Source: a virus. From it: a stretch of DNA of 25,359 nucleotides. The stretch is taken from positions 1-25,359 of IMG/VR virus record IMGVR_UViG_3300037493_002157; one strand, given 5' to 3'. This document shows, one piece after another, positions 2,912 through 25,359 of the stretch. A model generated the notes under the pieces. The model was not told where the DNA came from, ran no database searches, and saw only the letters and a list, made by a program, of their open reading frames with translations. The first letter of the stretch is position 1; each line of letters begins with the position of its first letter. Made by a program: the position numbers and the translations under genes.

Positions 2912-3985
2912 ATGAGAAAACCATACGATTCAATTTCAATGCAAGATGCTATCGACTTAATATCAGCAGTCGGTGATGTAACCACAGTGTTAGTACAAGG
3001 CGAGATGGGTATAGGGAAAAGCAGTATATTAAAAGCACTGCAACAACAGCACCCAGACCATGTAACGTGCTATGTAGATATAACAACCAAGGATGTCGGA
3101 GACTTTCTTATTCCACAGGTACGCCAGCTAGATGGCACGTCGGTCTGCTCATTCATACCGAACGAAGAGTTCGGCTTCCACCTCAATAAGCCTGTCATCA
3201 TTATGCTCGATGAGATAGGTAAGGCGAGTAAGTCCGTGATGAATGCGTGTCTTAGACTAATGCTCGAACGTAAGCTAGGAACACACACCCTGCCTGCTGG
3301 TAGTATTGTGTTTGCGACGACTAACTTATCGGCTGAAGGCATTGGCGATAGCTTACCGCCTCACGCAAGGAATAGAGTGGACTTGGTTAAAGTTCGCAAA
3401 CCGACTAGCGAAGAGTGGCGACTAGGCTTCGCATTAGGTGCAGGGATTGACCCCGTAGTCATCGCAACAGCAGGCGAGTACCCAGCAATGTTAGGGAGCT
3501 TCGAGGACTATGAACGCCCCGATATGAACGAGTACATCTATGACCCAAGAACACAACGCTCGGCGTTCGTTACACCGCGTAGCTTAGAAGCGGCAAGCAC
3601 CATACTGAAGCGATGCAGACACCTATCCGAAGACGTGCTGTACCATGCGCTGATAGGTGTAATCGGTGAGAGAGCGACGATGGACATGATGAACATTCTT
3701 AAACTCGACAACACCATGCCAACCTTCAAGGAGATAGTGGCAAAGCCACTGACAGCAATAGTGCCTACCAATGGCGCGTCGGTCTGCCTCGTGGTATCAA
3801 AGATAATGTGCAACGCGACAAAAGAAACCTTCGACAACGTGATGGTATACATCGAACGGCTACCCAAAGAAGCACAAGCCCTATTCGCTATGTCTGTGAT
3901 GAGTAGCAAAAGCCCACAGAGATTGGAAGCGGTAAAGAATAAACCTTTCACACAATGGTGCGTGAAAAACGGATGGATGTTCTAA
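2912..3985 (+). CDS. MoxR-type AAA+ ATPase
   Basis: 357 residues. Walker A GEMGIGKS is at 30-37, Walker B VIIMLDE at 95-101 and sensor 1 ATTN at 135-138, with candidate arginine-finger residues at R153 and R155 (HARNRVD). A helical lid domain follows. This is the layout of MoxR-family ATPases, which act with VWA-domain partners to remodel or activate proteins. The next gene encodes such a partner and starts at the stop codon, so the two are translationally coupled. The ATG follows the duplicated 85-bp leader. Substrate unknown. Confidence 0.9.
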   Translation: MRKPYDSISMQDAIDLISAVGDVTTVLVQGEMGIGKSSILKALQQQHPDHVTCYVDITTKDVGDFLIPQVRQLDGTSVCSFIPNEEFGFHLNKPVIIMLDEIGKASKSVMNACLRLMLERKLGTHTLPAGSIVFATTNLSAEGIGDSLPPHARNRVDLVKVRKPTSEEWRLGFALGAGIDPVVIATAGEYPAMLGSFEDYERPDMNEYIYDPRTQRSAFVTPRSLEAASTILKRCRHLSEDVLYHALIGVIGERATMDMMNILKLDNTMPTFKEIVAKPLTAIVPTNGASVCLVVSKIMCNATKETFDNVMVYIERLPKEAQALFAMSVMSSKSPQRLEAVKNKPFTQWCVKNGWMF

Positions 3986-5109
3986 TGAAAGCCGAAGACA
4001 GAATAACTAAGGCACACATAGCCTTGATGAAAGACCCAAGAACACTTGCCTACTCAGGCATACTGATGGTAGGTAAAGCCGAAGTCTTAGACGACGCATT
4101 GACAGCGAGGACAAATGGTAGAGATGTGCAGTATGGCAGGGCGTTCGTTGACAAGTTGACCGACCCAGAACTCAGAGGTTTAATCCTACACGAAGCCAAA
4201 CACAAGATGTATATGCACCTATTCGTATGGCGCAAGTTGATGGAAGAGGATATGGGTAAGGCTAACAGGGCGTGTGACTACGTTATCAACCTAGAGATTC
4301 ATGACCTTAACCCTAGAGGAGACTTTATACGACTACCCGAAGGCGGGTTAGTAGATGAGCAGTACAGAGGACTAGATAGTGGGCAAGTGTTCAAGCTCCT
4401 AGAAGATGATGGTGGTGACGGTGACGGGCTAGATGAACACGACTGGGAAGATGCTCAGGCACTAGATGGTGATGCGTTGGCAAAGGAGATAGATGGCGCG
4501 ATTAGGACAGGCGCACTACTCGCAGGTAAACAAGGCGGCGACATGGACAGGAGCTTCGATGTACTAATGACAGCACGGGTTGACTGGGCAGAACAATTAC
4601 GGGAGTTCGTTAGCAATACGTGTGCTGGTAAGGGCGACAGCACATGGGCAAAACCTAACCGCAGGTGGTTATCACAAGGTATTTATATGCCAAGCCAGAT
4701 AAGTGAAACAATAGGTTCGGTATGCGTAGCAATAGATACATCGGGTAGTATCGGGGGAGAGGACATAGCCAAAGCCCTTGCTGAAGTCGTGTCGATATGT
4801 GACAATACAACACCTGAGAAAGTTGACCTTCTCTACTGGGATACGAGCGTTGCATCCCATGAACAATACCGCGAGGATAACTACGCAGGGTTACTAACTT
4901 CGACTAAGCCAGCAGGTGGTGGCGGAACGAGCGTAGGGTGCGTAATGGACTACATAAAAGATAACCAACTCAAGCCTGAATGCACGATTATTATTACTGA
5001 TGGGTACACAGACTTTCCTAGCGCAGTGCCACCTTACCCTGTGATTTGGGTGATGGTAGGTAGCGGCAGTGTTGTCCCACCGTTCGGAGTTACAATTAGA
5101 ATAGGGTAA
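3985..5109 (+). CDS. Metallopeptidase-like VWA protein (DUF2201 type)
   Basis: 374 residues from the ATG at 3985, which overlaps the MoxR stop (TAATG); ATGs at 3955 and 3973 are possible but lie inside the MoxR gene. The N-terminal part has a zinc metallopeptidase signature, HEAKH, at 69-73. An acidic linker follows (about 139-170), then a VWA-like domain with a MIDAS motif: DTSGS at 251-255, GGGTS at 312-316 and a TDG at 338-340. This is the DUF2201 architecture (putative metallopeptidase plus VWA-like domain). Paired with the MoxR ATPase it probably forms a metal-dependent protein-remodelling or proteolytic complex. Whether the peptidase is active cannot be told from sequence alone. Confidence 0.88.
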   Translation: MKAEDRITKAHIALMKDPRTLAYSGILMVGKAEVLDDALTARTNGRDVQYGRAFVDKLTDPELRGLILHEAKHKMYMHLFVWRKLMEEDMGKANRACDYVINLEIHDLNPRGDFIRLPEGGLVDEQYRGLDSGQVFKLLEDDGGDGDGLDEHDWEDAQALDGDALAKEIDGAIRTGALLAGKQGGDMDRSFDVLMTARVDWAEQLREFVSNTCAGKGDSTWAKPNRRWLSQGIYMPSQISETIGSVCVAIDTSGSIGGEDIAKALAEVVSICDNTTPEKVDLLYWDTSVASHEQYREDNYAGLLTSTKPAGGGGTSVGCVMDYIKDNQLKPECTIIITDGYTDFPSAVPPYPVIWVMVGSGSVVPPFGVTIRIG

Positions 5110-5118
5110 GGAGATTAG

Positions 5119-5340
5119 ATGGTAATGTTAGTAGATACAGTTAAGCGCAGGGCAGTAGCGTTAGATGATGCAATCCCTACTCGTAGTATGGAGGAGGTGT
5201 TATTTGAGGATGTAGGTGAACTCCCACCTCCTATACCCGACAGGGTAGCCTTACTTAGAGTTACACCTATCAACAACCATGTGGTGGACGTAGGGATAAA
5301 CAAGGGTGGAGGGATTTACTGGGTGTGTGAGATAGAGTAA
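5119..5340 (+). CDS. Small hypothetical protein
   Basis: 73 residues beginning MVMLVDTVKRRAVALDD, with a strong GGAG site seven bases before the ATG. It contains a proline stretch (GELPPPIPDR) followed by a short beta-like C-terminus. No family recognised. It follows the VWA gene by nine bases and is probably the last gene of that transcription unit, because the fourth palindrome follows it. Confidence 0.6.
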   Translation: MVMLVDTVKRRAVALDDAIPTRSMEEVLFEDVGELPPPIPDRVALLRVTPINNHVVDVGINKGGGIYWVCEIE

Positions 5341-5350
5341 AAAAAAGAAG

Positions 5351-5374
5351 GTAGTGCGGACAAGTCCGCACTAC
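5351..5374. repeat. 24-bp palindrome, copy 4 of 4 (variant centre)
   Basis: The same 10-bp arms as the other copies, but the central four bases are CAAG instead of CATG. The hairpin stem stays perfect while the DNA is no longer a strict palindrome at its centre. It begins 11 bases after the upstream stop. Another small inverted repeat (GTTAGG 5384-5389, CCTAAC 5401-5406) and a CACAACAA-like stretch follow before the next gene, echoing the 85-bp leader layout. Confidence 0.88.
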
Positions 5375-5439
5375 CCCAGAGAGGTTAGGAGTGATGCTGA
5401 CCTAACTATAACACAACAAAAAAGATTAGGAGATTTAAT

Positions 5440-5733
5440 ATGGCTAAAACGCCAGAAGGTATTATCAAAGACCAAGTACGTAAAGTGCTTGAGGAGTTAG
5501 GGGCGTACTACTTCTTCCCAGCGGCGAACGGTTTTGGCAGAGCGGGTATCCCAGATGTTATCGCTTGCATCAACGGACAGTTCATTGGCATAGAGTGTAA
5601 GGCAGCAAGTAAACAACCGACAGCCTTGCAACAACGTGAGCTCGACAACATCGAGAAAGCGAAAGGAACAGGTTTGTTGGTCAACGCCGACAACATCGAC
5701 AATTTAAAAACAATTTTAACAGGGGAAAGCTAA
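5440..5733 (+). CDS. VRR-NUC domain nuclease
   Basis: 97 residues, essentially one VRR-NUC domain. The PD-(D/E)XK-type active site can be read as GIPD (D39), then IECK (E52, K54), with Q64 and an N-terminal acidic residue (E6) as expected. VRR-NUC proteins are structure-selective nucleases; phage versions are usually stand-alone single domains of about this size. TTAGGAG lies upstream of the ATG. It opens the replication part of the window, directly before a small membrane protein and DNA ligase, and may process branched replication or recombination intermediates. Confidence 0.88.
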   Translation: MAKTPEGIIKDQVRKVLEELGAYYFFPAANGFGRAGIPDVIACINGQFIGIECKAASKQPTALQQRELDNIEKAKGTGLLVNADNIDNLKTILTGES

Positions 5734-5882
5734 TGGAATTTTTAACCTACTTAGACGAATCAAACATCGCGTACTTACTAATGGTAGTCGGGTTCTTACT
5801 TATGGCGCGACTAAACAACAAGGCTATGGACGAGAACAAACGCCTGCGTCGCCTACTTAAAAACACGGTGCTAGGAGATTAA
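5733..5882 (+). CDS. Small single-span membrane protein
   Basis: 49 residues beginning MEFLTYLDESNIAYLLMVVG. The ATG overlaps the nuclease stop (TAATG). One hydrophobic segment covers about residues 12-25 (AYLLMVVGFLLMAR), followed by a basic, probably cytoplasmic tail (ENKRLRRLLKN). The AGGAG site of the ligase gene lies at its end. Function unknown; the coding case rests on tight spacing and the membrane segment. Confidence 0.55.
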   Translation: MEFLTYLDESNIAYLLMVVGFLLMARLNNKAMDENKRLRRLLKNTVLGD

Positions 5883-5883
5883 C

Positions 5884-6765
5884 ATGAAGATTAAACCGCT
5901 ACTTGCGGCGACCTGCTCAGACCTGAGCAGTGTAAAGTTTCCTGTATATGTGTCCGCAAAGTTGGATGGGATTCGCAGTTTAGTGCTTGAGGGTCAGTTG
6001 GTATCACGAACGCTTAAACCTATACCAAACAAAGCAATCCGCGAACTACTGTCAAGACCTGAGTTCAGTAACCTAGATGGTGAGCTGATTATAGGCAACC
6101 CGACGGACGACAATGTGTTTAACCGCACGTCGTCACAGGTGATGACTATGGAAGGTGGCTCTAAAGGTATGAAGTTCCATGTGTTCGACTACATTGTTGA
6201 TAAGCCGTACTATGTACGGTTGGAGATGGTTAGAAGTATCTGTGCAAAGTACCCTGAACACCTTGTAGCGCTAGAGCAGATACACTGCACAGATACAAAG
6301 CTCTTAGAAGACTTAGAGAGCCGCATCGTAGGGTTAGGGTTTGAAGGGGTGATGCTACGAGATTACAAAGGACTGTATAAGTTCGGGCGTTCCACTTTGA
6401 AAGAGCAGACCTTACTGAAATTCAAACGGTTTGAAACATCGGAAGCCCATGTAGTAGGGTTTGAAGAGCTGATGCACAATGACAACGAGGCTACGAAAGA
6501 TGCACTAGGGCATACAAAACGCAGTTCACATCAAGAGAACCAAGTACCCGCAGGCACGTTAGGCGCACTACTTGTGGTAGACGTTAAGACGGATGTCGAG
6601 TTTAAAATAGGTACAGGTTTTACGGCTGATGACCGCAAGAAAATCTGGGACAAACAAAGCTACTACGAAGGTGGTGTGGTTAGCTATCAGCATTTCCCAG
6701 TAGGTGTAGTAGACAAACCCCGATTCCCTAGCTTCAGAGGGTTTCGGAACAAAATTGATATGTAG
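5884..6765 (+). CDS. ATP-dependent DNA ligase
   Basis: 293 residues, short for the family (T7 ligase has about 359). Nucleotidyltransferase motifs appear in order: KLDGIR at 26-31 with the adenylated lysine K26, LDGELI with E65, FHVFDYI around 97-102, EGVMLRD at 152-158, and LLKFKR (motif V) at 175-180. The C-terminal part is a small OB-like domain (VEFKIGTGF). It seals nicks using ATP, here most likely between Okazaki fragments. AGGAG precedes the ATG. Confidence 0.93.
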   Translation: MKIKPLLAATCSDLSSVKFPVYVSAKLDGIRSLVLEGQLVSRTLKPIPNKAIRELLSRPEFSNLDGELIIGNPTDDNVFNRTSSQVMTMEGGSKGMKFHVFDYIVDKPYYVRLEMVRSICAKYPEHLVALEQIHCTDTKLLEDLESRIVGLGFEGVMLRDYKGLYKFGRSTLKEQTLLKFKRFETSEAHVVGFEELMHNDNEATKDALGHTKRSSHQENQVPAGTLGALLVVDVKTDVEFKIGTGFTADDRKKIWDKQSYYEGGVVSYQHFPVGVVDKPRFPSFRGFRNKIDM

Positions 6766-7221: not shown

Positions 7222-8502
7222 ATGGCAATAATCACACTCGACTTTGAAAGTTTTTACAGTAAGACCTATAGCCTATCTAAGCTAACGACGGAGGAGTATG
7301 TTAATGGTGATGAGTTTGAAGTTATCGGTGTAGGCGTTAAGGTAGGGGAAGCGGCGACGAGCTGGCATACAGGGAGCAAGGAAGAGATAGCGCAAGCCTT
7401 ACACGAGTACGACCTACCAAACAACACGCTCTTGTGCCATAACACCTTCTTTGATGCAACGATACTGTATGAGTTCTTTGGTATCACCGCTAAGAAGAAT
7501 CTCGACACTCTGTCGATGGCTCGTGCGATACATGGCATATCAGTAGGTGGTAGCCTCGCAAAACTAGCAGAGCACTACGAGCTTGGGGTTAAGGGGGATG
7601 AGGTTGTGAACGCACTGGGTAAGCACACCAAAGACTTCACGCAGGAAGAGCTTGCAAGGTACGGTGAGTATTGCATTAACGATGTGGAGCTGACCCACGA
7701 CTTATTCTTTAAACTCCTATCTCAGTTCAATGTGCAGGAGCTGACCCTAATCGATATAACTATTAAGATGGCGGTAAAACCTACATTAGTAGTAGACTTA
7801 CCTATGCTAGAGAGCTATCTGTACGAAGTAAGAGAAAAGAAAGAAGCCTTAATAAACTCTATCGAGGCAGACAAATCACAGATAATGAGTAACCCTAAGT
7901 TCGCTGCGTTACTCGAAGGGCTAGGGGTTGAACCCCCTATGAAAGTGTCACCTACTACAGGAAAACTTACTTATGCTTTTGCAAAAACAGATGATGGGCT
8001 TAAAGCACTACTGGAACACGCAGACCCAACCGTTCAAGCACTGGTCGCAACCCGACTCGGAGTTAAGAGTACCATTGAAGAAACACGAACAGACCGTTTT
8101 ATCGAAATTGCTAAACGAACTGATTACTTACCCATACCGTTAAACTATTACGGGGCGGCGACAGGGCGATGGTCAGCTTGTTTAGTTGCAGATACAATGC
8201 TTAAAGTGTATGATGTAGTCGAAGGGGTAGTAGACAAACGTATTGTCGATGTTCTCCTAGATGACCTTATATGGGACGGGGAAGAGTTTGTATCTCATGA
8301 GGGTGTAGTGTTTAACGGGTATGCAGAGGTGATGTCATATGACGGAATTACAGGAACAAAAGACCACATCGTGTTCACAGAAGATGGAGAGAGGACTCTA
8401 CTTGAAGCACTGCAAGGACAAAGTAGAATCTCGATTGCAGATAGCGTTACAGAAGACAAAGTGGAGTCCGCTAGAATCTTTAAGGTTACCGACAAAAGCT
8501 AA
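7222..8502 (+). CDS. polA: DNA polymerase A, N-terminal half fused to N-intein
   Basis: 426 residues. Residues 1-319 are the 3'-5' exonuclease domain plus the start of the polymerase domain: exo I DFE at 7-9, exo II HNTFFD at 73-78, exo III YCIND at 150-154, and the conserved TGRWS at 314-318. Proofreading residues look intact; there is no 5' nuclease domain. At C320 the polymerase stops and an intein begins (CLVADTML, block A; GTKDHIVF, block B). The protein ends in TAA at 8500-8502, after the intein N-fragment. The rest of the polymerase is encoded from 9120 in another frame. A purine-rich GGGGG lies before the ATG. Joined, the exteins would give about 608 residues, normal for a phage polymerase. 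Confidence 0.93.
   Translation: MAIITLDFESFYSKTYSLSKLTTEEYVNGDEFEVIGVGVKVGEAATSWHTGSKEEIAQALHEYDLPNNTLLCHNTFFDATILYEFFGITAKKNLDTLSMARAIHGISVGGSLAKLAEHYELGVKGDEVVNALGKHTKDFTQEELARYGEYCINDVELTHDLFFKLLSQFNVQELTLIDITIKMAVKPTLVVDLPMLESYLYEVREKKEALINSIEADKSQIMSNPKFAALLEGLGVEPPMKVSPTTGKLTYAFAKTDDGLKALLEHADPTVQALVATRLGVKSTIEETRTDRFIEIAKRTDYLPIPLNYYGAATGRWSACLVADTMLKVYDVVEGVVDKRIVDVLLDDLIWDGEEFVSHEGVVFNGYAEVMSYDGITGTKDHIVFTEDGERTLLEALQGQSRISIADSVTEDKVESARIFKVTDKS
8179..8499 (+). other. N-terminal half of a split intein (107 aa)
   Basis: The coding sequence from the Cys codon at 8179 to the stop gives an intein N-fragment. Cys1 directly follows the polymerase motif GRWSA. Block A (CLVADTMLKVYD) is followed by the beta-rich splicing domain and block B with TxxH (TGTKDH, T379 and H382 of the host ORF). 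The last segment, KVESARIFKVTDKS, looks like the strand that in contiguous inteins leads into the C-terminal block. Together with the C-half at 9120-9197 the intein totals 133 residues, minimal intein size. Confidence 0.88.
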
Positions 8503-9139
8503 ACTGCTGTGCAGATGTATTTGCGGTAGGGAGTACAGGGTTAGGGTATCCGACATACTATGTGGGGGTTCGCTACAATGTAGAGCCTGTAGTGATAGAG
8601 CGTGGGGAGATGCACGACAAACACCCCTAGAGGAATTAAAGAGAAGAGCTGAAGTAGGTGTTAAAGTTAGGGAAGGAAATAGACTTAAGGCATGGGGATA
8701 CTACTGGGATACGTACACCATCTTAGAAGTACAGAGAGTAAGGAGTATTGCCTCTGGGGCTAGGTCTAGGTGTACTAACAAAAACAACAAGTCATACGCT
8801 AACTATGGGGGCAGGGGGGTAGAGTGTAAGTTCCCAACAACAGAGGTAATGACTAAGTGGCTGCTTGATAATTTAGGTGTTCGACCTTCGGATAGGCACT
8901 CAATAGATAGAATAGATAACAACGGGCACTACGAACCTGGAAATATAAGGTGGGCATCCCCTTTAGAGCAAGCACGGAATAAACGTCAGTACAAGTGCAC
9001 TCAACGGGGGGAGCAGATAAGGTACATACTATCCCAAAGACAAGACCTAACACACGAATGCGTTAGAGCGTGGATAAAACAAGGGTTTTCTGTAGAGCAA
9101 ATACTAAATAGGAGTAAACATGATAGAGCCTGTATATGA
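8339..9139 (+). CDS. HNH homing endonuclease between the intein halves
   Basis: 266 residues if started at the ATG at 8339, which has AGAGGTG seven bases upstream. The domains are a cysteine-rich zinc-binding region (C58, C60, C62, C81, C84), a linker with YANYGGRGVE, an HNH core with H187, D190, N202 and N214 (RHSIDRIDNNG, GNIRWASP, QARNKR), and a C-terminal helix-turn-helix (CVRAWIKQGFSVEQIL) that probably helps DNA recognition. This is the architecture of many intein- and intron-borne phage HNH nucleases. It lies in a different frame from both polymerase halves. Its first 50 or so residues overlap the N-intein coding sequence in the +1 frame and carry no recognised domain, so the true start is uncertain. 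It ends 20 bases into the C-half gene. Expected role: cutting intein-free polA alleles to spread the insertion. Confidence 0.87.
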   Translation: MTELQEQKTTSCSQKMERGLYLKHCKDKVESRLQIALQKTKWSPLESLRLPTKAKLLCRCICGREYRVRVSDILCGGSLQCRACSDRAWGDARQTPLEELKRRAEVGVKVREGNRLKAWGYYWDTYTILEVQRVRSIASGARSRCTNKNNKSYANYGGRGVECKFPTTEVMTKWLLDNLGVRPSDRHSIDRIDNNGHYEPGNIRWASPLEQARNKRQYKCTQRGEQIRYILSQRQDLTHECVRAWIKQGFSVEQILNRSKHDRACI

Positions 9140-9197
9140 TATAAAAAACTGCGGACCACGACATAGGTATGCAGCGAATGGGAAATTAGTACACAAC
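9120..9197 (+). other. C-terminal half of a split intein (26 aa)
   Basis: The peptide runs from its own ATG through EPVYDIKN, CGPRHRY (block F histidine) and AANGKLVHN (block G, ending His-Asn), and is followed by Cys as the first extein residue. All residues needed for the C-terminal splicing steps are visible. At 26 residues it is clearly shorter than the 35-40 residue C-fragments of well known natural split inteins; it seems to lack one N-terminal beta strand, which is present on the N-half instead. Confidence 0.88.
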
Positions 9198-10067
9198 TGC
9201 GGTGGGCAACGGGCAAATTTCCAAAACCTACCTAGAAACTCTACGCTCAAGAAGGCTATCGTTGCACCAGAAGGTTATGTGGTAGTGGGGGCTGACTTAT
9301 CTAACATTGAGCTACGAGTAGGGTTATGGGTATGCGGCGAGATGGAAGCACTCAAGTCGTTAGGTGAAGGTCGGGATTTGTACAAAGAGTTCGCCAGCTT
9401 AGTGTTTAACGTAGCGTATGAGGACGTGAGTAAAGACCAACGGTTTATTGGTAAAACATCTCAGCTCGGTCTTATCTTCGGTGTCGGTGCTGGGAAACTA
9501 CGGGAAGCTATTAAGGTCGGGTCAGGCACAGACATCGGTGAGATGGAAGCGAAGCGCATCGTTGACTTATACCGTGCAACCTACAAGGGGGTGACAGCGT
9601 TTTGGAAGACGTGCACAAATGCTATCACCGCAATGGGTAACGACGAGGGGTTTACTTTTGGGCAAGACGGGTTGTATGTAGCAGAAGGTAAACGAGGTGT
9701 TAAGTTCCCTTCAGGGTTGTATATGCAGTACCCACTACTAGCAAATGTGGTAGATGAAAAGACAGGTGAGAAAGGGTACAAGTATAAAATGCGTAACGGT
9801 TATGATAGACTTTACGGCGGTAAATTGACTAATAATTTAGTACAGGGAACGGCACGTTGCGTTATGTCAGAGGCAATGGTTCGCATTGCAGATAAGTACC
9901 AGATTGCTCTAACGGTACACGATGCGCTATATATTGTTGTGCCAGAAGCTGAGGCACAGGAAGCCTTAGATTATTTAATTGAAGAGATGTGCAAACCACC
10001 GTTGTGGATGCAGGGCATCCCACTAGCGGCTGAGGGTGGGTGGGGTAGAAGTATCGCAGATTGTTAA
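9120..10067 (+). CDS. polA: C-intein fused to DNA polymerase A, C-terminal half
   Basis: 315 residues. Residues 1-26 are the intein C-fragment and residue 27 is the +1 Cys. The polymerase then resumes with CGGQRANFQNLPR. Motif A is GADLSNIELR (D59). Motif B is R108-K112-L116-F120 (RFIGKTSQLGLIFG). A conserved NNLVQG (Q242) and motif C VHDA (D268) follow. The nucleotide-selecting position equal to E. coli F762 or T7 Y526 is Leu, and motif C has Ala after the catalytic Asp instead of the usual Glu. The start is certain: an in-frame TAA lies at 9105-9107, then GGAG at 9111-9114, then ATG at 9120. It is therefore translated as its own gene. Confidence 0.93.
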   Translation: MIEPVYDIKNCGPRHRYAANGKLVHNCGGQRANFQNLPRNSTLKKAIVAPEGYVVVGADLSNIELRVGLWVCGEMEALKSLGEGRDLYKEFASLVFNVAYEDVSKDQRFIGKTSQLGLIFGVGAGKLREAIKVGSGTDIGEMEAKRIVDLYRATYKGVTAFWKTCTNAITAMGNDEGFTFGQDGLYVAEGKRGVKFPSGLYMQYPLLANVVDEKTGEKGYKYKMRNGYDRLYGGKLTNNLVQGTARCVMSEAMVRIADKYQIALTVHDALYIVVPEAEAQEALDYLIEEMCKPPLWMQGIPLAAEGGWGRSIADC

Positions 10068-19991: not shown

Positions 19992-20017
19992 AAAAAGGAG
20001 CCTAGGCTCCTTTTTTT
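19990..20017. terminator. Bidirectional terminator between convergent genes
   Basis: Seven As (19990-19996), the perfect palindrome GGAGCCTAGGCTCC (19997-20010), then seven Ts (20011-20017). It can stop transcription from both sides. Both flanking stop codons lie in it (TAA at 19989-19991 and, on the minus strand, 20016-20018), so the two converging transcription units share it. Confidence 0.92.
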
Positions 20018-23000
20018 ACATAGGCAATTTATGGTACCACTTACTATACCTCTCGTGGGCTACCTGAACCTTTTTGTTTATTAGATCCTCCTTAACCTTC
20101 TTCTGAGCTGCATTTAGGTTTTTGCTGTTATGGATCTGACGTAGTTGCGCGTGCAAGTCATCTACGGTTTTAGTGGTTAGGTTAGTCGCTGTGATTAACG
20201 CTGGGTTTAACAACGCTTTATGTTCCAGTTTATATGCCTTAGCTTCAGCCGGCAGTTTATCTTTCACCAAACTGTTGTAGGTATTGTTAGCAGTCTCTAC
20301 TTCTCGTCGTACTTTATAAGACAAGTTGGTTGCTTCAAACGAATCCCCCACAGGCACTATACTGGACGTTCCAGGAACCATTCTAACTAGCTCACGAAGT
20401 GAGTGATCTTTAACAGACACATTAGAAGCGAAACTGGCGACGTTACTGGCTACCAACACGAGTTTACCCGTACCACTAAACAAGCTCGAAACTATATGAT
20501 CAAACTTAATAGGAGACATCCCGACCTTACCGGCTATCTTACCCAACTCAGAGGTAGACGTATCGTACTGCTCTGCGGTAGCTCGGCGTTGTAATCGCTC
20601 AGGAACAATAGGGCGTTCTGTAAAGAAGTCATAGTTAGCGCCGTACTGCGCAATCTCTTTAAGCAGTGGAGGAGTCATCGGCGCACCTAGCCCCGATGCC
20701 ATAAACAGTGTGTGCAATAGAGCATCTCTTGTCTGAGCAGCGTCTTCTCGACCTACCAACGCCTGGTATAAATGATTTCCGCCGACAAAAGGCATAGACC
20801 AAATATCGGGGCGGATAGCAAGTGATACTGGCGAATTCCCACCAAGTAGGAAGATACGGGAATCCTTGTCACGGTTACTTTTTTTCTTGAACTCATCATC
20901 ATCATCATCTAACAAGCTACCATAAAGCACGTTGTGCACGAGGGCCATAGCCATCATAGTAAGAGAACTAGACACTAGTCGCTTATACACTTCTGCCTTA
21001 TCTTGGTGAGCAAGACCTCTACCCGCTATCACTTGAAATGCCGCACGTTGTGCTTGTATCGTGGCACCCATAAACGGAACATTAGAACGCCACTGCTCTA
21101 GTACAGCAGAAGCGCCCCGTCTACGAAAGTTAATAACATCAAATGCGCGTTGCGTCGCAATTGCCTTCGCATTAGGATTACCCTTAAGCTCTTCCATAGA
21201 TCGCTTATATACCGCCTGACGAATAGCATTATCCCCCGCCATCGCAAACTTCTCTAACTTCGTTTTAAGACCACGCCACGCTTTTGCCGTTACAGTTTTA
21301 GCCTCGTCGTCGTAATGCGTGTGGAACGATATGTCATGGATATGGGTGGATTTAGAATCAGCGATGTTATCTTTCACGCCCACTGCGCCCATACGTTTAA
21401 GGATTTGGTGCGTATCTGTATCTTTCTTAGAAAACGCCGTGGTACCAAACTCGGTAGCTAGGTCATAAGCCAGTTTAAAAGGGTTCTTAATACCTGCTGT
21501 GAAAAACGCAGAGTATATATCTTGAGGTAGCTGACCTATTGTAAAGGTAGGGGCTAAAACGATACCGCTCCGCATGATGTTACCAGACACAGTCAATAAT
21601 GGCACTATCAGGGCCGCTGACGGTGTCCCTCTAAAGGCACTTGCCATTAAAACATCCTCAAACATCCAAGACTGTTTTTTACCGTGAGAATAGATTACAA
21701 CTGTTTTAGCTTTATCTTCGGCGGACTGAGAACCATGTACGCGTGTTACTGTCCCTACAGGCATAGACTTACGCATTACGTCTATTAGGTCCGTTGCTTT
21801 CTTAGCGCGAATAGCCGACGTAAAACTTATCTGACTCCACGCTTCCATGTTGGACATAATATCCATAACATCTCGCTCAGAACCTTTGAGTTTTTTGTTA
21901 GACATCCCGTTTGTCAACGCAGATACCCTATGACCGCCTACGTTATTATCCCCCATACCTTCAATGAAACTGTCTAAGGAATCGGTGTCTGTTAGGTTCT
22001 CCATAACACGGTTGAAAGGGACATAAGCCAGCGCCTTCGCATAAGCGTCAGCTTTTTCTTGGCTAAACAACCCAGATTTAACTAGGGTTTTGATAAGGTT
22101 AGCCCTAACTGCGTGCCACATCTTCTCAGCTTTTACGAACTCTTCTATACTGCCGTACGCATCTGCCGTAGCCTGGCTCTTTGCTTTGTTAGCCCCATCC
22201 CTTTTTAAGACAGCCCTAATTTCCTTAACCTTCTCAAGCCACACCGCTTTTTCGTCTTTATCTACTATAGCATTGGCAGCAGCCTCGTGGCTTTCGGCTT
22301 CCTCAAAAAGCTCCAGTATTCGCTTAGACACCATATAGTTTGTAAAGTAGGCGTGTGTCTCACGCTGCGTCCAGCCTTGTTTTGCGCCACCATCATCGAC
22401 CAACTGGCGGAGACTGACTAAGTTGTCCTTAGAATCTATAGAAGACCATATCCCCATACTGTCAAAATCTCCTCCCCCTACCATCGTAAACTCCGCTGCA
22501 ACAGAGGTTACATTCACCGTCTGCATTTGATTAGATCTAGTCAGGGCAGTTAGGGTGTATTCGGTGGCCGCTCCTATTTTCTCTAGGTAGCGGCGAAGTG
22601 AGTTAACCAGCACCGCATCGTGGCTCATATACTGCTGTTCAAAAATATCGATTGCCCTAGTGAGGTTAGACATCATAGGTTTTTTACTTACCGTCCAACT
22701 TTCTTTAGCTGTAGGTACGTTCTTTTTGTCCAGCTCAACTTGTGCTTTTAGTTTGTTTGCTACTGAGTACACGTACTCTGATTTCTTACCGTATACAGGG
22801 TCTTTTACCATCAGAATACTTCCGATTTGAATAACTCTTGAACCTGATTTTATAGGCTGCATAGTTTTTCTATCGTAGAAGTACGAATGACGTTCTGGGT
22901 CCATACCCACTTGCACCCAATCAGGGTCAGTCATTGCTTCATCCGCTAATCGTTTAGCTTCCTTAGCAGACATATTAACGTATTCACCGTCAACCGTAGC

Positions 23001-25359
23001 CAAAGGATATTTATCACGCGTTGTGCCAGCTATTTTTAACGCATTCGCTTCCTCAATACTAAATTTAGGATTATCCGCAACGGCGTGACCGTAGTAGGCA
23101 AGGGGCGTAGCTGTATCTACACCAAATATAGAATTCTTTTTGGTATTTCCTTCGTGAGCAGTCACCGCCCAAATCCCAAACCGTTTATAGGCTGGGATAT
23201 CTAAGCGTAGTTTTACTTTATACCCGTCTGGGACAGGTCTATTTATATTAACGGCTTGCTTATCTTTTAATGCTCCCTGCATTTCAGCTTCTGTTGCAGG
23301 GGTAGGTAGAGATTGGTAAGGCTCAACGGGTTTATATTTTTCAACTAAAGCGTCATGCGCTTCTGCTAACTTTCTAAACTCTGGATTAGACCGAGCAAAG
23401 TCTTCAACATCCTTAATGGATACCTCTTTAGCTAAGTTCCCTTTTGTACCTCTAACAAGCATCCCATTATCATACAGCACATCCATCATCTTCTTTGCAG
23501 ATTCAGTGAGTTCTGGTACGCGTTGTAATATTTGTTCATGGGGCATACCTATACGAGAATTCTCTCTAGGTTTTTGAGCGTAAGCTGTATCACCGTCGAA
23601 CCGCACAATCGCATCTTCTTTGCTGATACCTTGAGACGTGTAAGGCGTTGAATCTTTACGCTGTTCTGGTGTGAAATCTTTACGAGCCTCAACGTCCCTA
23701 GCTTCAATTTCACCAGAGATTAATTTATACACCCTATGTTTCACCGTACTGGGGACTAAAGCGTATAGCTCGCTACTACGCTCCCTGATGTCTTTTTCAG
23801 TACTATATTTTAACTCCCTAAGCTTATCTAGCGGTTCTTTGTACTTAGTATTTAACTCTCTAATCGCTCTGGAGGGGTTGAGATATGTCATTGACTCATA
23901 ATGAAGCCTATTAGCCTCGTCACCTAATACCCTAATCTTGGAATTTATATAATCTCTACCTGCTCCGAGCGGCGCATCAAAATGCTCGTCTTGTAAGGCG
24001 GTCACAGCAATTCTATTTTTATCGATTGCGTCTTTAGTAAATTGATACTTATCCGCATACTCACTACGAGTTTTGGTTTCAATAGACTTCATTCTTCCAT
24101 CTATAATTTTTTTGATGTTATCTATCTTAGCGTTAATACCTTCTAGTTTAGCCAAAGATTTATGAAGCACGTTTATCTCACTGAGGCTTTTACGGACTTT
24201 ACTTATGTCTTTCTGCACCCAATCTTTCATAATTTTATTTGTACTCACATCACTAAGAATATATTTTTCTAACGTGTTAAGTAGGTTCTCGTCATAATTT
24301 TTAACAGAGTTAGAGTTACCTCCTGACGCGAAACCTTCTTTATCTTGTATCCAATGTTGTATCTCATGGATAATGGTGCTTCTAGGGTCCTCAGCATACG
24401 GGGTAACAACTATCTCGTTTTTACCTTTGTCATACCAACCGTTTGTGCTTTGAGACCAGTCAAAAAACGGGCTTTTTATTTCAAATTTAATATCCGCTGC
24501 ATCAGGGTACTGCTTGTACAGTTCTGGGTTATCTAATACCTCACCTACTGTGAACTTAGTTTTTTCTGGGATAGCTTTAAAATCTTGTTTATACTTAGCT
24601 ACGCTATCATCGACTTCAAACCGCCACTTATCATCCATCCCTAAAAACCAACCCGTATCTTTACGGATAGAGTCAACATCTACGCCTTCTTGTTCCATTT
24701 TAGTTGCGCGGGCTAAGGCAGGGGTATCCGCACCTAACGCTTTCTGTCCAACATAAGAAAAAGCTGTACCTTCTCTAACAGAACGCGCAGATGTTAGAGA
24801 TTCTTTGCGTAGCGCTTTAGCTGCAAGGTGGTGGATATCCGCTTCTGTGATGCTAAGTCTTGCACCGAAGGTTGTGCGTACCCAGTTTTTAATAGCGGCG
24901 ACTGTCCGTTTTACAATAGGCAAATGAGGGGCGTTCTCTACTAAGTACGCAAGGGTTTCTTCCCCTTTTAAATGCTCTGGTGTGTCCTCAGGCACTGACC
25001 GCCGCGCCGCTTCAAATGCGCCACCTTTAGTGGTAAGAGCTTGAGACGTTAAATCACCCCAGACTTTATCCCCCACCATACCTTTCATACCGACGTGCAC
25101 ACCCATTTCGTGCAAAGCTACTCTCGGCATTGATTCAGGTGTGAGCTTATTAGCCAGTAAGTGCACTTCGCCTTGCGGGGTTGTTAGACCTTGTACACCC
25201 TCAGGGTGGTTTTCGCCAGGGAACGTATCTAAGCTGTCATGCAGTGTGAGCTTACCGCTTTTAACAAGTGCACGCATCTGCGGCGTGAAGTACGGAGTAA
25301 GGGTCTCAATGGTATGTGCTGTATTTTCATCCGACGTAGTTATAGAGGGTTTAGGTTCT
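20016..25359 (-). CDS. Giant polyvalent protein, C-terminal part
   Basis: Open on the minus strand to the right edge, about 1,780 residues visible; the frame continues upstream of the ATG at 25277 with no stop, so the N-terminus lies outside the window. Features in order: a zincin-like HEMGVH (25095-25112); a second zincin motif HEIQH within STIIHEIQHWIQ (24354-24368), followed by EGFASGG; an inserted coiled-coil region (about 23,900-24,300); GEIEARDV (about 23,700); a domain with GYKVKLRLDIPAYKRFGIW and VDTATPLAYYGH; a helical region; and a C-terminal LPD38-like domain with hydrophobic stretches. This is the polyvalent-protein architecture of phages and conjugative elements: many effector domains in one chain, thought to enter the host with the DNA. 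The opposite strand and size fit a virion-associated late gene (inference). Confidence 0.85.
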   Translation of the reverse strand, partial: EPKPSITTSDENTAHTIETLTPYFTPQMRALVKSGKLTLHDSLDTFPGENHPEGVQGLTTPQGEVHLLANKLTPESMPRVALHEMGVHVGMKGMVGDKVWGDLTSQALTTKGGAFEAARRSVPEDTPEHLKGEETLAYLVENAPHLPIVKRTVAAIKNWVRTTFGARLSITEADIHHLAAKALRKESLTSARSVREGTAFSYVGQKALGADTPALARATKMEQEGVDVDSIRKDTGWFLGMDDKWRFEVDDSVAKYKQDFKAIPEKTKFTVGEVLDNPELYKQYPDAADIKFEIKSPFFDWSQSTNGWYDKGKNEIVVTPYAEDPRSTIIHEIQHWIQDKEGFASGGNSNSVKNYDENLLNTLEKYILSDVSTNKIMKDWVQKDISKVRKSLSEINVLHKSLAKLEGINAKIDNIKKIIDGRMKSIETKTRSEYADKYQFTKDAIDKNRIAVTALQDEHFDAPLGAGRDYINSKIRVLGDEANRLHYESMTYLNPSRAIRELNTKYKEPLDKLRELKYSTEKDIRERSSELYALVPSTVKHRVYKLISGEIEARDVEARKDFTPEQRKDSTPYTSQGISKEDAIVRFDGDTAYAQKPRENSRIGMPHEQILQRVPELTESAKKMMDVLYDNGMLVRGTKGNLAKEVSIKDVEDFARSNPEFRKLAEAHDALVEKYKPVEPYQSLPTPATEAEMQGALKDKQAVNINRPVPDGYKVKLRLDIPAYKRFGIWAVTAHEGNTKKNSIFGVDTATPLAYYGHAVADNPKFSIEEANALKIAGTTRDKYPLATVDGEYVNMSAKEAKRLADEAMTDPDWVQVGMDPERHSYFYDRKTMQPIKSGSRVIQIGSILMVKDPVYGKKSEYVYSVANKLKAQVELDKKNVPTAKESWTVSKKPMMSNLTRAIDIFEQQYMSHDAVLVNSLRRYLEKIGAATEYTLTALTRSNQMQTVNVTSVAAEFTMVGGGDFDSMGIWSSIDSKDNLVSLRQLVDDGGAKQGWTQRETHAYFTNYMVSKRILELFEEAESHEAAANAIVDKDEKAVWLEKVKEIRAVLKRDGANKAKSQATADAYGSIEEFVKAEKMWHAVRANLIKTLVKSGLFSQEKADAYAKALAYVPFNRVMENLTDTDSLDSFIEGMGDNNVGGHRVSALTNGMSNKKLKGSERDVMDIMSNMEAWSQISFTSAIRAKKATDLIDVMRKSMPVGTVTRVHGSQSAEDKAKTVVIYSHGKKQSWMFEDVLMASAFRGTPSAALIVPLLTVSGNIMRSGIVLAPTFTIGQLPQDIYSAFFTAGIKNPFKLAYDLATEFGTTAFSKKDTDTHQILKRMGAVGVKDNIADSKSTHIHDISFHTHYDDEAKTVTAKAWRGLKTKLEKFAMAGDNAIRQAVYKRSMEELKGNPNAKAIATQRAFDVINFRRRGASAVLEQWRSNVPFMGATIQAQRAAFQVIAGRGLAHQDKAEVYKRLVSSSLTMMAMALVHNVLYGSLLDDDDDEFKKKSNRDKDSRIFLLGGNSPVSLAIRPDIWSMPFVGGNHLYQALVGREDAAQTRDALLHTLFMASGLGAPMTPPLLKEIAQYGANYDFFTERPIVPERLQRRATAEQYDTSTSELGKIAGKVGMSPIKFDHIVSSLFSGTGKLVLVASNVASFASNVSVKDHSLRELVRMVPGTSSIVPVGDSFEATNLSYKVRREVETANNTYNSLVKDKLPAEAKAYKLEHKALLNPALITATNLTTKTVDDLHAQLRQIHNSKNLNAAQKKVKEDLINKKVQVAHERYSKWYHKLPM

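Follow-up and report, generated by a model that had tools for sequence, protein, structure and literature searches.

How does a virus obtain one DNA polymerase from a gene whose parts lie in three different reading frames? The question is raised by a virus record of 25,359 bases (IMG/VR IMGVR_UViG_3300037493_002157), the whole of which is referred to here as the window. With a probability of roughly 0.87, its polA gene, for a phage family A DNA polymerase, hosts a mobile fractured intein, in which N- and C-terminal intein halves (IntN and IntC) on separate ORFs (open reading frames) are accompanied by an HNH endonuclease gene. An earlier, sequence-only reading had proposed a fractured polA with these components, and both the sequence and the conserved layout support it.

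One polymerase gene in three frames

Three different frames are used: the PolA N-half with IntN at 7222-8502 (frame 1; an ORF of 426 amino acids), the HNH ORF at 8339-9139 (frame 2) and IntC with the PolA C-half at 9120-10067 (frame 3). The features are as follows.

7222-8178, + strand: PolA N-extein, 319 amino acids; 3'-5' exonuclease domain, then the beginning of the polymerase domain, ending in TGRWSA
8179-8502, + strand: IntN, 107 amino acids and stop codon TAA; Cys1 codon at 8179-8181, block B GTKDH with the His63 codon at 8365-8367
8327-8332, + strand: putative Shine-Dalgarno sequence AGGTGA within IntN, 6 nucleotides (nt) 5' of the ATG at 8339; locus L008 has a similar AGAGGT
8339-9139, + strand: HNH endonuclease ORF, 266 amino acids, +1 frame relative to IntN; alternative start ATG at 8384
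9110-9114, + strand: Shine-Dalgarno sequence AGGAG within HNH codons, 5 nt 5' of the IntC ATG at 9120
9120-9197, + strand: IntC, 26 amino acids with its own ATG, sequence MIEPVYDIKNCGPRHRYAANGKLVHN; block F VYDIKNCGPRHRY, block G LVHN
9198-10067, + strand: PolA C-extein, 289 amino acids, starting with Cys+1 (9198); motifs DLSNIELR and VHDALY
8179-9197, + strand: whole putative mobile element, 1,019 nt (length not divisible by three); missing from the polA of sister phage L002

The exonuclease and polymerase domains of a family A enzyme, with the polymerase motifs, are present on the two halves. The N-extein matches Pfam DNA_pol_A_exo1 (4.6e-7) and phrog_17, DNA polymerase (8e-26), and is colinear with the intact L002 polA, while the C-extein matches Pfam DNA_pol_A (6.8e-32) and phrog_17 (5e-60). 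The sequence-only reading had the polymerase frame ending in an intein N-half with Cys1 at 8179 and resuming at the ATG at 9120 as a C-half with block F, His-Asn and Cys+1; all of these are in place. It also had the exteins joining cleanly within the GRWSA motif, and they do so (GRWSA / CGGQ), giving 608 amino acids, equal in length to the intact L002 protein. Its HNH gene is indeed in the third frame; the position assigned to that gene, between the halves, is incomplete: the ORF shares 164 nt with IntN (8339-8502) and 20 nt with IntC (9120-9139), so that strictly speaking it does not intervene. This dual coding of the nuclease gene with both intein halves is the unusual part of the locus. A BLASTN search against phage records gave no match, and Pseudomonas phage Rollin, the top match of the C-half, has no intein. 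The family phrog_26005, of unknown function, matches the extein/IntN region of the window.

The canonical splicing residues are present: Cys1, the block-B TxxH (GTxxH), the block-F CGPRHR, the terminal His-Asn, and Cys or Ser at position +1. The AlphaFold model of IntN (predicted local distance difference test score 86) superimposes on the IntN of Npu DnaE (4qfq_A) with a VIA-align Z of 9.6 and a root mean square deviation of 1.9 over 87 residues. The 41 best rows of the structure comparison are all intein or Hedgehog Hint domains, unrelated rows having Z values of no more than 2.7. It was this comparison that settled the assignment, after profile and sequence searches had failed or given weak results, and on the model the predicted Hint fold of IntN is secure. 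IntC is near-invariant across all loci. By sequence the two halves are on separate polypeptides, each with its own start, and trans-splicing of the PolA halves is predicted.

The HNH ORF belongs, by its sequence, to the HNH endonuclease family. All 30 members of the HNH alignment (A5, 30 loci) match phrog_374, HNH endonuclease (5.9e-30 for the window), structures named HNH endonuclease are matched in BFVD (best 2e-15), and the ORF carries a zinc-ribbon CxC..CxxC and SIDRIDNNxHYEPGNxRWA. Residues 14-44, encoded in the overlap with IntN, are predicted to form a confident helix and strand. The nuclease activity is putative.

Conservation and dual coding across loci

Loci were collected from IMG/VR scans with the HNH alignment and with the IntN alignment, together with the window and hits in GTDB. 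There are 74 in total, 56 of them less than 95% identical over IntN. The arrangement of the window, in which HNH is in +1 and IntC in +2 relative to IntN (frame 0), is found in 37 non-redundant loci by the same identity limit, the window included (36 by script plus L124, whose HNH gene, seen in the overlapping locus L034, was missed by the motif pattern of the script). In five further loci (L131, L132, L135, L137 and L142) IntC is back in frame 0, and in four the contig ends inside the element. Preservation of the three-frame layout in so many independent loci means that it is neither an assembly fault nor chance. A GTDB scan with the fractured IntN profile gave no match, and a second with L145 found contiguous relatives only.

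Several loci vary the theme. In L152 (IMGVR_UViG_3300046001_005823) a GIY-YIG-like ORF (MYSIYKITSPSGRSYIGLTKSKISERWRQH) replaces HNH between the polA intein halves at about 5250-6140. L145 and L146, whose UViG identifiers look isolate-derived, have at 5001-5640 a split polA intein with an HNH remnant of 86 amino acids. The same fractured layout occurs at the site DRLAG|C in a Rollin-like PolA (L038/L144, IMGVR_UViG_3300001661_000011), far from the PolA of the window. The polA C-halves of L017, L025, L096, L101 and L130 are about 565-590 amino acids long, compared to about 290, possibly through a second polA insertion.

The overlap was assessed quantitatively in two ways. When the IntN protein was held fixed and its synonymous codons reshuffled (200 shuffles, 20 loci), the HNH frame of the 36-codon overlap had a mean of 25.3 stop codons and a minimum of 14; the natural sequences have none. 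The conservation score in this test is inflated by shared ancestry, as the third frame, which is not in use, likewise exceeds its shuffles in score but contains 53 stops. Position-specific divergence, which is less prone to this inflation, was therefore also measured. IntN substitutions are protein-coding in pattern (0.24, 0.22 and 0.59 at codon positions 1, 2 and 3, respectively), and mean pairwise divergence at third positions, 0.59 and 0.56 upstream of the overlap, falls to 0.36 inside it and returns to 0.61 immediately past it. The lack of stops and the third-position drop indicate that both frames are constrained.

Translation signals are similarly conserved. In 28 of the 32 loci checked, HNH and IntC overlap by exactly 20 nt, counted from the IntC ATG, and in 30 of the 32 that ATG follows a Shine-Dalgarno match of 4 nt or more, compared to 36% of synonymous shuffles. 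At the other end, 28 of 45 loci read CATG across the block-B His codon and the next base. This supplies a candidate HNH ATG, which is the sole early HNH start codon in L012, L026 and others. In the window, L008 and some others that codon is CAC; since the window also has two ATGs (8339, with AGGTGA 6 nt 5', and 8384), its HNH start is not certain.

An empty site and contiguous relatives

The contig L002 has an intact 608-codon polA at the same place, lacking the 1,019-nt element. The window exteins and the L002 gene, 1,827 nt each, are 92.2% identical overall, the insertion point reading GRWSA|CGGQ in the window and GRWSA|GGGQ in L002. The 60-nt bin directly 3' of the junction is 78% identical, compared to 88-97% in bins farther away, a higher divergence that would be expected if flanking DNA had entered with the element (co-conversion). 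This pair, a single observation, supports a probably recent insertion of the element into an otherwise near-identical phage.

Tree comparisons suggest that the element and polA have different histories. The extein data reject the HNH groupings L026+L017+L030+L129 (approximately unbiased (AU) test, p about 1e-58) and L034+L035 (AU p 0.02), and neither of two converse tests reached significance (AU 0.30 and 0.41); as the groups were picked after the trees had been seen, the conflict is supportive only. Homing, that is, cutting of the empty allele and copying of the element into it, is indirectly suggested by the empty site, the co-conversion-like flank and the tree conflict.

Relatives with contiguous inteins are also found. 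At the same polA site, L151 has one in a single ORF of 962 amino acids, with an HNH ORF (5077-5880) in +1. APSE-1 P45 (L092) has a contiguous intein and a nested +1 HNH gene annotated as P46, Javan113 (L090) likewise has a contiguous polA intein with a +1 HNH gene, and further contiguous inteins of polA or helicase with +1 HNH genes occur in L150 and in Bacillota and Sphingomonadaceae metagenome-assembled genomes. At the other extreme, L093 has kept the split and deleted HNH, leaving 8 nt between the IntN stop and the IntC ATG. In L150 and L159 the contiguous intein, with its HNH gene hidden in +1, is in a DEAD-type helicase (GRGTR..PGK|C). An odd chimera in Moraxella phage Mcat21 (L091, 2632-3564) combines a ThyX-like N-terminus and a PolA-like stretch (PIPLRYASAHTGRYGG) with a mini-intein that is contiguous and has no nuclease.

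On the HNH tree, unrooted and with several long branches, a single change separates the contiguous from the split state (support 75). The simplest reading would be a route from contiguous to fractured to nuclease-less, in that presumed direction. Whether the PolA inteins record a general contiguous-to-split route, by which an out-of-frame HNH gene is acquired, the intein frame is lost, IntC is rescued by a Shine-Dalgarno sequence and ATG in the last codons of the nuclease gene and the nuclease is finally deleted (as in L093), we consider evenly balanced. In the contiguous stage of such a route the intein linker would be only the off-frame translation of the nuclease. The overlap would also protect the nuclease, mutations at the start or end of which would damage an essential polymerase. 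The related loci suggest a way in which a nuclease gene lying out of frame can split an intein.

Proposed mechanism, rival explanations and known systems

In the mobile fractured intein that we favour, a single mRNA would yield three proteins: PolA-N fused to IntN; the HNH nuclease, initiated within the IntN coding sequence and read in the +1 frame; and IntC fused to PolA-C, from its own Shine-Dalgarno sequence and ATG within the last HNH codons. IntN and IntC would assemble, and Cys1, Cys+1 and the IntC-terminal Asn would catalyse trans-splicing to a 608-residue polymerase with the junction TGRWSA-CGGQRANFQNLPR. Intein-less polA, at the conserved motif, is the most likely target of the HNH enzyme; repair of the cut would then copy in the whole element. 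The probable origin is an HNH gene out of frame in a contiguous intein, a state that relatives still show, with the intein frame later losing its continuity. What the analysis shows directly is the three-frame layout and how well it is conserved, the constraint from dual coding, the predicted Hint fold of IntN, a near relative with the empty site, and the translation signals.

A number of observations weigh against this reading. Curated intein hidden Markov models do not recognise IntN (no Pfam match; TIGR01445 at E 0.05 in one of the 22 loci of IntN alignment A4), which lies outside their range of sensitivity; comparison with the Npu DnaE IntN by hhalign is weak (probability 5%), Foldseek E-values are marginal alone (best 9e-3) and IntN has no sequence match in the PDB. 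IntC is usually roughly 35-40 amino acids long for this split type, and at 26 the efficiency of splicing could be low. In the HNH protein, Arg (DRID) replaces the first His of the canonical motif in all members, so nuclease activity is not to be assumed, and neither a Foldseek search with its model nor a sequence search found a match in the PDB. Both splicing and expression from a single mRNA are predictions from sequence. The most serious competing explanation is that the split is real and the intein no longer splices, leaving a two-subunit polymerase or a decaying gene. Split polymerases without inteins occur in phages, and splicing is here a prediction; yet the catalytic residues of both intein halves are kept across very diverse loci and both exteins are full length and conserved, and we regard this explanation as improbable.

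The remaining rivals dispute the protein-level split itself. Two programmed +1 ribosomal frameshifts, yielding one continuous precursor for cis splicing, would suit the steps from IntN to HNH and from HNH to IntC, which are both +1 in the majority type. However, 14 different codons precede the IntN stop in 32 loci and no slippery site is common to the loci, for which reason we rejected this very improbable scheme; IntC moreover has a Shine-Dalgarno sequence and ATG, is in frame 0 in five type-B loci, and follows no HNH gene at all in L093. If the element were instead an RNA-level intron (group I or II) that carries an HNH ORF, the protein motifs would be coincidental. Such an intron would fit an element whose length is not a multiple of three, and group I introns with HNH ORFs are reported from phage DNA polymerase genes (PMC3428280). 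It was rejected on the Rfam search, which found no intron up to E 1 in 7900-9500; the protein-coding substitution pattern of IntN, its predicted Hint fold and the replacement of Gly at +1 by Cys or Ser also make it extremely improbable. An assembly or sequencing error, in which two false frameshifts disguise a continuous intein with an in-frame HNH domain, might be suspected in single-contig metagenomic data, but is practically impossible and was rejected as refuted by dozens of independent loci: dozens of contigs, taken from different samples and 50-70% identical, show the same pair of breaks, a Shine-Dalgarno sequence and an ATG belong to IntC itself, and the HNH frame overlaps IntN by more than 100 nt, the IntN stop lying far downstream of the HNH start. 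Resequencing that removed both breaks had been named in the sequence-only reading as refuting it; the same breaks in some 40 independent loci answer that concern.

The mobile fractured intein can be set beside several known systems. Dassa et al. (2009, NAR 37:2560) reportedly described genes fractured by split inteins, with a gene for a nuclease lying between the two parts. The window shares with that type a split intein that breaks the gene of a conserved enzyme, an accompanying gene for a homing endonuclease between the halves, and the phage setting. From the type as reported, the window differs in its host protein (PolA), in having an HNH rather than a Vsr-like nuclease, in the third-frame nuclease gene which overlaps both halves with measurable dual-coding constraint, and in its contiguous out-of-frame relatives. 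The window polA is a fractured gene by the definition of this type, with the two-sided overlap as a variation. Reviews (PMC11766414) cite Dassa et al. for the idea that endonucleases entered contiguous inteins and broke them up.

Split inteins of phage PolB (Aes123 PolB1, CP21 PolB1, LCGC14 PolB2) are established (PMC12707363), so that a polymerase made by trans-splicing is in itself not new; that it is PolA appears new. They too give a replicative polymerase from two halves by trans-splicing, predicted for the window PolA, but are cysteine-less inteins of a family B polymerase, and Aes123 PolB1 is a weaker structural match to the window IntN (Z 5.6). Npu DnaE, gp41-1 and NrdJ-1 resemble the window intein in IntN fold and approximate split position, at about 16-20% identity and with the window IntC at 26 amino acids. 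The ShiLan domain (PMC11855218, 2025), a hidden out-of-frame HNH in a phage methylase, similarly has an alternate-frame HNH gene in an insertion that leaves the host gene open; it lacks both intein and split, whereas in the window the host frame is interrupted and encodes a predicted Hint domain. APSE-1 P45 and Javan113 share a Hint domain in PolA and a +1 HNH gene starting near block B and ending near block F, but are contiguous single ORFs at other PolA sites. Within the limited literature covered, nothing described a PolA intein that is split, nor a gene for a nuclease that overlaps an IntN and an IntC, and the term 'PolA intein' was not encountered. The components are known separately, as fractured genes, as the split PolB of phages and as HNH genes lying out of frame where there is no intein; combined in PolA they appear to be new.

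The system is real, widespread and conserved, and production of the polymerase by trans-splicing is a well supported prediction. The further claim that phage replication depends on trans-splicing was overstated, being deduced from sequence; as the contig is possibly incomplete, another polymerase is possible. The origin of split inteins is still argued, and here one intein class shows contiguous inteins with a hidden nuclease gene, two fractured frame arrangements and a split without nuclease. It also offers a rare measured case of homing-nuclease and splicing-domain sequence on the same DNA, and opens the assembly of a phage PolA through trans-splicing to direct test. Protein engineering gains a new and useful set of split inteins whose IntC is very short, at 26 amino acids, and a widespread group proves to be overlooked by the standard intein profiles.

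Elsewhere in the window, an AAA ATPase gene is followed by a DUF2201 metallopeptidase/VWA-like gene with a 31-nt overlap (2912-5109), and a 1,753-residue protein with LPD23 and LPD38 large polyvalent protein domains is encoded at 20016-25277 on the - strand, opposite to the replication genes.

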